Origin: Candidatus Mediterraneibacter merdipullorum
GTDB lineage: Bacteria; Bacillota; Clostridia; Lachnospirales; Lachnospiraceae
NCBI GenBank assembly: GCA_019117125.1
Contig: DXAL01000030.1
Coordinates: 53,403 to 117,402 of the forward strand
Direction: 5' to 3'
DNA length: 64,000 nucleotides
The position numbers and the translations under genes are program-made. The notes below the pieces were generated by a model. The model was not told the DNA's origin. It ran no database searches and worked only from the letters and a program-made list of their open reading frames with translations. Positions within the stretch are counted from its first letter, which is position 1, and each line of letters begins with the position of its first letter. Shown here in pieces: positions 48,219 through 51,114 of this stretch.

Positions 48219-49301
48219 ATGACGGAATATAAAATCGGCGACAGCCGCATCACCCTCGACTACGGGAGCGGCGGTCTGAAGACATCCGAGCTCATCGAAT
48301 CCATCCTGCTGCCCGCATTTGACAACAGCGCCCTGTCCCGGCTGGGGGACGGCGCCGTCCTTCCCGGCAGTGAGAAACTGGTATTTTCCACCGACAGCTT
48401 CGTCGTCTCCCCGTGGCGCTTCCCGGGCGGGAACATCGGAAGCCTGTCTGTGTGCGGGACAGTAAATGATATCTGCATGGCAGGGGGATTGCCAAAATAC
48501 CTGAGTCTGTCCTTCATCATTGAAGAAGGATTTTCCTTTTCCGACTTTGAGGAAATCGTCGACTCCATCGCGGAAGAAGCCCGCTCCTGCGGGGTATCCG
48601 TCGTGACCGGCGACACAAAAGTCGTAGACGCCGGGAAAGGCGACGGCATCTATATCAATACCGCCGGCATCGGATTTCAGAGGGCGGCGCTCCCCGGCAG
48701 GGAAGCCATCCGTCCCGGAGATGCCGTGCTCATAAGCGGCACCGTCGGCTGTCACGGGGCTGCGGTCATGATGGCGCGCTCCGGACTGCTCCAGCCCGGC
48801 AGCCCTCTTGTCTCGGACTGCATGCCGCTGCATCAGGTCAGCGCCGCCGCCCTTGACGCCGCAGGCATGGACGCCACAGGCACGTACAGCGCAGATGCCG
48901 GTACAGACTCCACCGGGGACACCGCGCCCATCCGCATCTTAAGAGACCCCACCAGAGGCGGGGTTGCCACTACCTTAAATGAATTTACCGAAGGCATGCC
49001 CTTCTCCATTGAACTCGATGAGACTTCCCTGCCGGCAAACCCGGCAGTCGAAGCAGCCTGCGACATGCTGGGGCTCGACCCTCTCTACTGCGCATGCGAA
49101 GGGCGCATGCTCGTCGTCTGCGCTCCCGACGCAGCGGAAAAAATCCTCGCCGCAGTCCGGAACATCCCCGGCGGGGAGAACGCCGCACAGATTGGCACTG
49201 TCACCGAAGACATGCCCGGAAAAGTCCTGCTCAGGACCCCCATCGGCGGCAGACGAATCCTCTCCAAACTCAGCGGCATACAACTCCCGAGGATATGCTA
49301 A
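48219..49301 (+). CDS. hypE: Hydrogenase expression/formation protein HypE
   Basis: ITLDYGSGGLKTSELIESILLPAFDN...DPTRGGVATTLNEF; C-terminal GGRRILSKLSGIQLPRIC (HypE PRIC terminus). Confidence 0.95.
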   Translation: MTEYKIGDSRITLDYGSGGLKTSELIESILLPAFDNSALSRLGDGAVLPGSEKLVFSTDSFVVSPWRFPGGNIGSLSVCGTVNDICMAGGLPKYLSLSFIIEEGFSFSDFEEIVDSIAEEARSCGVSVVTGDTKVVDAGKGDGIYINTAGIGFQRAALPGREAIRPGDAVLISGTVGCHGAAVMMARSGLLQPGSPLVSDCMPLHQVSAAALDAAGMDATGTYSADAGTDSTGDTAPIRILRDPTRGGVATTLNEFTEGMPFSIELDETSLPANPAVEAACDMLGLDPLYCACEGRMLVVCAPDAAEKILAAVRNIPGGENAAQIGTVTEDMPGKVLLRTPIGGRRILSKLSGIQLPRIC

Positions 49302-49309
49302 CCAGTCTG

Positions 49310-49700
49310 CCATGCAGTAGGAATTGATGGGATTGGATATACAAGCTTGCTTGTATATATCCAATAACAGCAATTCCGCTATATGGCGCACGCCATACAG
49401 TGAGAATGGGCGCAGCACATTCGAGCTGCTGCATGGCGCACGGACGACCTGAATACGCCATGCAGTAGGATTGCGAAAGCTGCCATGTAAGCTTGCTTAC
49501 ATATGGCAGTTTGCGATGATTTTGATATATGGCGTACGCCATACAGTGAGAAGCTGCCTACGCGGCAGGTTCGAGCTGCTGCATGGCGCACGGACGACCT
49601 GAATACGCCATGCAGTAGGATTGCGGAAGCTGCCTACGCGGCAGGTTCGAGCTACTGCATGGCTTAAGTTCACCATTCAACGCAAGTTTACTTGCATGTG
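49310..49700. repeat. Composite hairpin array with duplicated ~150-bp unit
   Basis: Identical 56-bp copies at 49420-49475 and 49570-49625; hairpins at 49332-49365, 49382-49397, 49480-49509, 49528-49543, 49554-49568, 49630-49644, 49682-49695. Confidence 0.9.
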
Positions 49701-49755
49701 ACAGCCAGTGGTAATCCCGATATATCGCGCACGAACGACTCAAAACCATACATCC

Positions 49756-51084
49756 TCACAGAAACGCCGCCATATACACCGGAAGCATAAACACATCTTT
49801 CTCTTTCTGCATATCTTTTGTATATACCAGGTATTTTTCGCCAATACGCTCCGAATATTTTTCTGAAAAATTATCAAGAGAAGCATGCGTTTTATAGCCG
49901 GATGATTTCACCTCAATCGGGCATATCTTATTCTTTCTCGCCAGAATAAAATCAATCTCATAATTATGCTTTGTTTTTTTATTAAGGAAGGTATGATAAA
50001 ACAGTTCATTTCCATTTGTCGCCAGCATCTGCGCCACTACATTTTCATACAAATACCCGAGATTTACACCGAGTTTATCATTCAGCAGTTTCTCATAGAT
50101 GATATTTTCTGTGTAATCTTTATCTTTAAATACCAGCGTCGTAAACAAGCCTGTATCCGCCAGAAACAGTTTAAACTTTGACAAATCCTTGTGATTTGAC
50201 ATACCAGCATTCGGGTCATTCACATGATAGGCAACAAGAACAGTCCCCGAATCTTTCATTTCGGCGACAAGTTCCAGAATATGTTCTGCCCTGCCATTAG
50301 GTAAAACGCCGGACACCTGATATCTCGATGCATTTTTATTCAACTGCGCCGGAATTGCATCAAAAAGCTCTGATACTCTTCCTGTCGGGTCTATTTTTTT
50401 GAAATCATCCTCGTACAGATTCAGGATATCTCTCTTTACTGCATCCACCATCCTGAAATTATTTGTCCGGAGATATTCATCTACTGCCTGGGGCATCCCG
50501 CCCACCAGCATATACAACCGGAAGCTCCGCATCATTTTCCGATTCACCGCTTCTCCCAGCGGCTTCTCCGCCTCATATGCGTGTTGTAATAATCTCATTG
50601 TCGTTCCGTCGCCGACCGCCCAGAGAAATTCTTCATAATCCATCGGATACATGCGGATTTTTCGCTCTTCACTTGGAATAAGGATATCCTTTACATTTTT
50701 CCGGATGGAAATCAGGGAGCCCGTTTCTATATAATCATATCTTCCATCTTTGACGAGCGCTTTAATCGCCTGCCGCGCCAGCGGAAATAACTGTACCTCA
50801 TCAAAAACGATAAGAGAGTCTCTTTCTGTCAGGTCCGTTTTATACTGAAGCTGCAGCTGCAGGAAAAAATAGTTCAAATCTGATAAATCCTCAAACAGTT
50901 CTTTAACTGCTGAAGGCGCAATGGAAAAATCAATCATAATATAACTTGCATACTCGCGTCTTCCGAATTCTTCCACAACTGTAGATTTTCCCACACGCCG
51001 CGCACCTTCAATCAGCAGCGCTGTCCTCCCTCCGGATTCCTGTTTCCATTGAAGCAGTTTTTCATATATCTTTCTTTTAAACAT
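49756..51084 (-). CDS. AAA_14 / DUF4143 family ATPase
   Basis: MFKRKIYEKLLQWKQESGGRTALLIEGARRVGKSTVVEEFG; LIVFDEVQ; C-terminal EIDFILARKNKICPIEVKSS. Start at 51084 gives an AAGGAG RBS ~9 nt upstream. Confidence 0.9.
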   Translation of the reverse strand: MFKRKIYEKLLQWKQESGGRTALLIEGARRVGKSTVVEEFGRREYASYIMIDFSIAPSAVKELFEDLSDLNYFFLQLQLQYKTDLTERDSLIVFDEVQLFPLARQAIKALVKDGRYDYIETGSLISIRKNVKDILIPSEERKIRMYPMDYEEFLWAVGDGTTMRLLQHAYEAEKPLGEAVNRKMMRSFRLYMLVGGMPQAVDEYLRTNNFRMVDAVKRDILNLYEDDFKKIDPTGRVSELFDAIPAQLNKNASRYQVSGVLPNGRAEHILELVAEMKDSGTVLVAYHVNDPNAGMSNHKDLSKFKLFLADTGLFTTLVFKDKDYTENIIYEKLLNDKLGVNLGYLYENVVAQMLATNGNELFYHTFLNKKTKHNYEIDFILARKNKICPIEVKSSGYKTHASLDNFSEKYSERIGEKYLVYTKDMQKEKDVFMLPVYMAAFL

Positions 51085-51114
51085 GATAAGCATCTCCTTT
51101 TCCTTATCATACCC

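Follow-up and report, generated by a model that had tools for sequence, protein, structure and literature searches.

A tandem array of a probably mobile, four-helix palindromic element related to Clostridiales-1 RNA at the 3' end of hypE

The hypE array and its unit

The stretch of DNA analysed here, called the window, is 64,000 nucleotides long and comes from Candidatus Mediterraneibacter merdipullorum (Lachnospiraceae). Within it, an array of hairpins begins where hypE stops (stop codon, 49301) and stops short of a convergent AAA_14/DUF4143 gene. The array extends from 49300 to about 49745. Two of its units are complete, a third is internally deleted, and of a fourth a remnant is left. The scores below are those of R1, a covariance model built from 35 relatives, and of the Rfam model of Clostridiales-1 RNA (RF01699).

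48219..49301, + strand: hypE, with AIR synthase-related domains (Pfam AIRS, AIRS_C)
49300..49446, + strand: unit 1, a complete four-helix element (R1 116.1 bits, E 1e-32; fold; RF01699 34.1 bits, full length)
49447..49596, + strand: unit 2, complete, head-to-tail with unit 1 (R1 105.6 bits, E 1.5e-29; RF01699 25.1 bits)
49597..49672, + strand: unit 3, internally deleted, with P4 and P3 lost and the P1 arms and P2 retained (R1 10.2 bits; folds as P1 enclosing P2)
49664..49745, + strand: what remains of a fourth unit: the cap region of P4 (GCAAGTTTACTTGC) with a decayed P3 (direct reading; weak fold)
49420..49475, + strand: 56-bp duplication, copy 1, covering the end of unit 1, the linker ACCTGAATAC and the start of unit 2
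49570..49625, + strand: 56-bp duplication, copy 2, identical to copy 1 and covering the end of unit 2, the linker and the start of unit 3
49756..51093, - strand: AAA_14/DUF4143 protein (Pfam), convergent neighbour outside the element

Comparison of relatives from the genus showed the single unit to be a four-helix junction about 150 nt long. Read on the hypE strand, the 5' arm of P1 is GTCTGCnCATGC and P3 is TATGGCGnaCGCCATA; the P4 hairpin measures about 58 nt in the hypE copies and has stem letters that vary by locus and a cap AAGCnnGCTT followed by a 2-nt bulge; and P2 has the form CAGC-GA-GAT-GGA-stem-GGA-ATC-GA-GCTG, with G.A pairs, after which comes the 3' arm of P1. The P1 arms are also the terminal inverted repeats of R1-type copies. 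Unit 1 follows this order, with the P1 5' arm at about 49306-49319, then P4 (the long hairpin, capped by AAGCTTGCTT), P3 (TATGGCGCACGCCATA), P2 (CAGTGAGAA...TTCGAGCTG) and the P1 3' arm, and unit 2 differs from it in the P4 stem and the P2 tip, while cap and P3 are unchanged. The window copies, with TATGGCG in P3, and the young mobile R1 copies, with ATAGGGCG in P3, are sister subtypes. The fourth-unit remnant contains a TTAAGTTCACCATTC-like fusion that recurs in four relatives (L012, L015, L016, L020).

The earlier note had described a dense hairpin array here, and all the features it named are present. The folding energy of the array is -189.3 kcal/mol, whereas dinucleotide-shuffled sequences give -137.8 +/- 6.3. 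This corresponds to z = -8.2, on both strands, and none of 100 shuffles folded as well. The two stems with the common loop AAGCTTGCTT, at 49343 and 49489, are helix P4 of two units with altered stem letters; TATGGCGyACGCCATA occurs twice (49382 and 49528), as does CTGCCTACGCGGCAG (49554 and 49630). The arms CTGCTGCATGGCG and CGCCATGCAGTAG of the reported 13-bp-arm hairpin lie at 49426-49438/49456-49468 and at 49576-49588/49606-49618, but this hairpin is no unit of its own: its arms are the outer stems of adjacent units meeting across a junction. The duplicated 56-mer is exact and extends no further, and its identity crosses the unit junction, as tandem duplication predicts.

Another reading takes the hairpins for ordinary intrinsic terminators that lie at gene ends and were duplicated locally, and the A-rich and T-rich P4 arms of three relatives (L024, L026, L028) do resemble bidirectional terminators. 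We consider this very unlikely for the hypE array, since we found neither a promoter-like nor a terminator-like site near it (terminators were sought as a GC-rich stem with a T run between 49100 and 49900), and terminators do not have four conserved helices, inverted-repeat ends or empty sites. Integron attC-like sites, considered in view of the variable palindromes at gene ends, were set aside as well, as no matching end boxes were noticed on informal inspection.

A dispersed family related to Clostridiales-1 RNA

The earlier note had proposed a dispersed repeat family and a genome-wide search for it. BLAST of the array against its own genome gave only faint copies, whereas R1 gave 10 copies in the same genome, and a wider BLAST search reached the genus only; BLAST is nearly blind to the family because stem letters change, so that a covariance model is needed. 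The family is indeed dispersed: R1 has matches in all but four of 58 Mediterraneibacter genomes (54), with as many as 34 copies in one, and a sample of the order yielded matches in 90 genomes (of 392) from 48 genera (of 172). The single-copy outcome without relatives, which the note had said would argue against a mobile repeat family, thus did not arise. Outside Lachnospiraceae, no genome among 299 of the phylum had a match, all hits being to family members. A pattern scan returned 41 stretches named as Mediterraneibacter or less specifically (Lachnoclostridium, Ruminococcus, Lachnospiraceae, Eubacteriales). An origin from plasmids or phages was considered and dropped, since searching by pattern gave no hit among 72,556 plasmids and 50,697 phages, nor in IMG/VR.

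The site downstream of hypE is itself variable: orthologues carry a full element, a remnant or none, with no element in L323, L327 and L329. In three others (L326, L331, L338) the hypE 3' site holds a palindromic element of another kind (GATTACAGCTCACTCGTGAGG...TTTATGCTTGCATAAGG...GTGAGCTGTAATC), whose cap is of the GCTTGC type; its L326 copy scores 46 bits with R1 and may represent a third branch of the superfamily.

Clostridiales-1 RNA has been in Rfam since 2010 with function unknown (RF01699; PMC2864571). The window units resemble it in having four helices in the same order, a long hairpin on which a small bulge comes after the GCUUGC-type cap, a GGAG/CGGA internal loop in the last hairpin, a Clostridia/gut habitat and many copies. 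They differ in a far shorter P3, in ends of the type CAGTYYGC rather than GATGCCAGGG, and in lacking the extra 3' hairpin. At 34.1 and 25.1 bits the window units do not reach the Rfam gathering cut-off of 48; at a permissive threshold the match spans model positions 1-166, the full four-helix consensus, with P3 shortened. One bridging R1-type copy (G054:C19:38980-39125) passes both models; with RF01699, 55.4 bits, above the cut-off, were obtained for a close R1-type relative (L245). The cross-score derives partly from the long capped hairpin, but helix order and the internal loop of the last hairpin agree too. Since canonical Clostridiales-1 copies score poorly with R1, the two are best regarded as sister branches, not one tight family. 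A large divergent branch is spread across Lachnospiraceae below the Rfam cut-off.

Mobility of two relatives

The clearest signs of movement come from genome G028 (complete, 2.7 Mb), which has no R1 match and about 100 Clostridiales-1 copies overall, at least 40 of them near-identical. These are exactly 194 bp long, end in a 17-bp terminal inverted repeat (GATGYCRGGGTCAAAAG) and are mostly flanked by perfect AT-rich direct repeats of 7-8 bp. The inverted repeat had 107 forward and 113 reverse matches in this genome, against 1 and 2 for a reversed control pattern. One copy is nested in another repeat, of which uninterrupted copies (89-94% identity) occur in the same genome. Among R1-type copies, one (G007:C199) is bracketed by ACCAAAATTT on both sides, a 10-bp duplication, and shortens an open frame of 411 codons to 382; its joined flanks correspond to contiguous DNA in G047 (86% across the junction) and also in G045, G048 and G042. 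The search for empty sites that the earlier note had suggested was therefore successful for these two relatives, which have moved, but no target duplication is visible at the window copy. Nor is one visible at most old copies: the direct-repeat score of window-type copies averages 3.95, against 3.83 +/- 0.09 for mismatched flanks, which implies that most window-type copies are old.

G028 also contains a further palindromic repeat family of about 213 bp that Clostridiales-1 has invaded (L198, L199, L210; G028:C1:884044-884256), as well as short Clostridiales-1 derivatives of about 27, 75 and 113 bp (L273, L275, L285, L286) that keep the inverted ends but lack the interior, a pattern suggestive of hairpin skipping.

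Our data suggest, with a probability of about three in four, that the hypE array consists of tandem copies of a mobile palindromic element, MITE-like in being miniature and non-autonomous, that belongs to the Clostridiales-1 superfamily. The unit of about 150 bp has terminal inverted repeats that double as P1 and enclose P4 (with its GCTTGC cap and 2-nt bulge), a short P3 and P2 (with paired G.A). A transposase acting in trans would have moved it, duplicating 7-10 bp of target, and the window subtype presumably moved as its relatives did. Its arrival at the hypE stop codon may date back to an ancestor of these species, after which duplication between unit ends could have produced the array and a hairpin deletion the shortened third unit. 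Bacterial MITEs and the mosaic repeats ERIC, BOX and RPE are about 100-200 bp long, noncoding and intergenic, have terminal inverted repeats and, when young, are flanked by target duplications, traits common to the present element. The element departs from them in that no parent insertion sequence was found among the G028 inverted-repeat loci examined and in an inner junction conserved with compensatory change across a bacterial family.

Several points count against this MITE-like reading. No transposase or autonomous partner was seen, even where copies are most abundant, among the inverted-repeat loci examined in G028 (part of about 220 matches), and most window-type copies have no visible target duplications; the young mobile R1 copies belong to a sister subtype of the window copies; a plain MITE, moreover, needs only its ends, which does not explain the well-kept inner junction. 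A 1385-bp pair of inverted repeats in G028, considered as the autonomous partner, turned out to consist of two mini-elements with the gene of a 291-aa protein between them.

The earlier note had likened the array to a REP/BIME mosaic, which would be spread by a RAYT (a Y1 tyrosine transposase). The likeness is real in part: REP/BIME and CGTC-tagged repeats are likewise palindromic, clustered and next to stop codons, which they sometimes supply (Di Nocera 2013, PMC3733652), and Y1_Tnp proteins of 255 aa occur in most genomes of the genus. The comparison nonetheless fails on structure and on enzyme. The unit has four helices and about 150 nt rather than 20-40 nt (some five times longer), no GTAG tag is conserved in our alignment of 35 units (A1), and its relatives have inverted-repeat ends with target duplications, which are unexpected for HUH/Y1 enzymes. 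No element adjoins the RAYT-like genes, and copy number does not track RAYT presence: G049, G054, G009 and G000 have copies and no detected Y1_Tnp of that kind, while G052 and G011 have RAYT-like genes and no copies. We therefore regard spread by a RAYT as highly improbable. The Y1_Tnp proteins of about 255 aa have two fixed locations, next to glycyl-tRNA synthetase or next to transketolase, with no adjoining element (L112-L131; G006, G016, G025 and others). A CGTC-tagged REP in particular was suggested by the 3' GGACG and 5' CCA of the element and then rejected, as CGTC and CCA are on opposite strands here and on one strand in CGTC-REPs.

Upkeep of the fold

The fold has been kept while its letters changed. 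In a MAFFT alignment of 35 units (A1), with the structure drawn from one member and checked on others, 42 of 57 pairs were altered on both sides, and double-change cells numbered 381, against 133 +/- 11 in shuffled and 91-146 in slid controls. Kinship among sequences can inflate such counts, but the slid controls retain kinship and yet stay low. The pattern also holds at a single orthologous site, the 3' end of hypE in 19 species, with 139 double-change cells (shuffled mean 44, maximum 57).

Long near-perfect palindromes such as P4 are prone to correction by template switching in replication, and covariation might arise by this mutational route with no structural selection required; the internal-deletion derivatives do indicate replication trouble at hairpins. 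Template switching should, however, erase the unpaired features of the stems, and these persist. The bulge (A at column 64 in 30 of 35 units), the tandem G.A pairs (about 32 of 35) and the GGA/GGA purine internal loop stay unpaired while surrounding pairs covary, which argues against purely mutational correction of palindromes. We judge a purely mutational origin of the covariation improbable, and we think that after insertion the fold was more likely maintained by selection on folded RNA or DNA.

If folded RNA is what was selected, the units would be functional structured RNAs, either 3' untranslated parts or small RNAs, kept by host use. This reading is compatible with a mobile origin and thus overlaps our preferred one. 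It accords with the grading of Clostridiales-1 as "probably" RNA by Weinberg et al. 2010 (PMC2864571), with the strong covariation at the hypE site and with the unpaired features (the A of column 64, the tandem G.A) conserved inside covarying stems. Mismatches on the + strand also favored G-T over A-C (105 to 63; p = 0.044, composition-corrected), though this strand bias is weak. The lack of a promoter- or terminator-like site near the window array and the hypE orthologues that do without the element speak against it, as does mixed orientation to neighbouring genes. At 55 of 89 loci the upstream gene was in sense, mostly with the element starting within about 25 nt of its stop codon; at the other 34, the gene in that position is transcribed in the direction leading away from the element, and grouping distinct loci by gene (a hand count) gave about 16 versus 16 in the two arrangements. 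Placement beside gene ends has been reported for REPs (PMC3733652) and, taken alone, need not imply an RNA role. On balance, a host-used structured RNA seems to us plausible at somewhat less than even odds.

The MITE-like reading, with its conserved inner junction, leads to a tentative extension that we consider rather unlikely: Clostridiales-1 and its relatives may be family-wide mobile elements dependent on a folded four-way junction, as RNA or as single-stranded DNA, with stems rewritten by selection and the shape kept. If so, the element would be a transposon of structured nucleic acid, neither a passive MITE nor a housekeeping small RNA. Whether a bacterial mobile element can be selected for its folded shape becomes testable at hypE, glnA and similar loci, at which paired changes have rewritten one and the same element from species to species. 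In the literature searched, a limited collection, we found no paper describing Clostridiales-1 as a mobile element; that its best copies are one, with inverted-repeat ends and target duplications, changes the annotation of such "RNAs".

The element also contributes to coding sequence at some loci. Its P1 arm encodes the final residues (..STDQTCA*) of a transporter-like gene (L165, L253, L264 and orthologues), and in other genes the first letters of the element supply the TAG stop codon (L133, L230).
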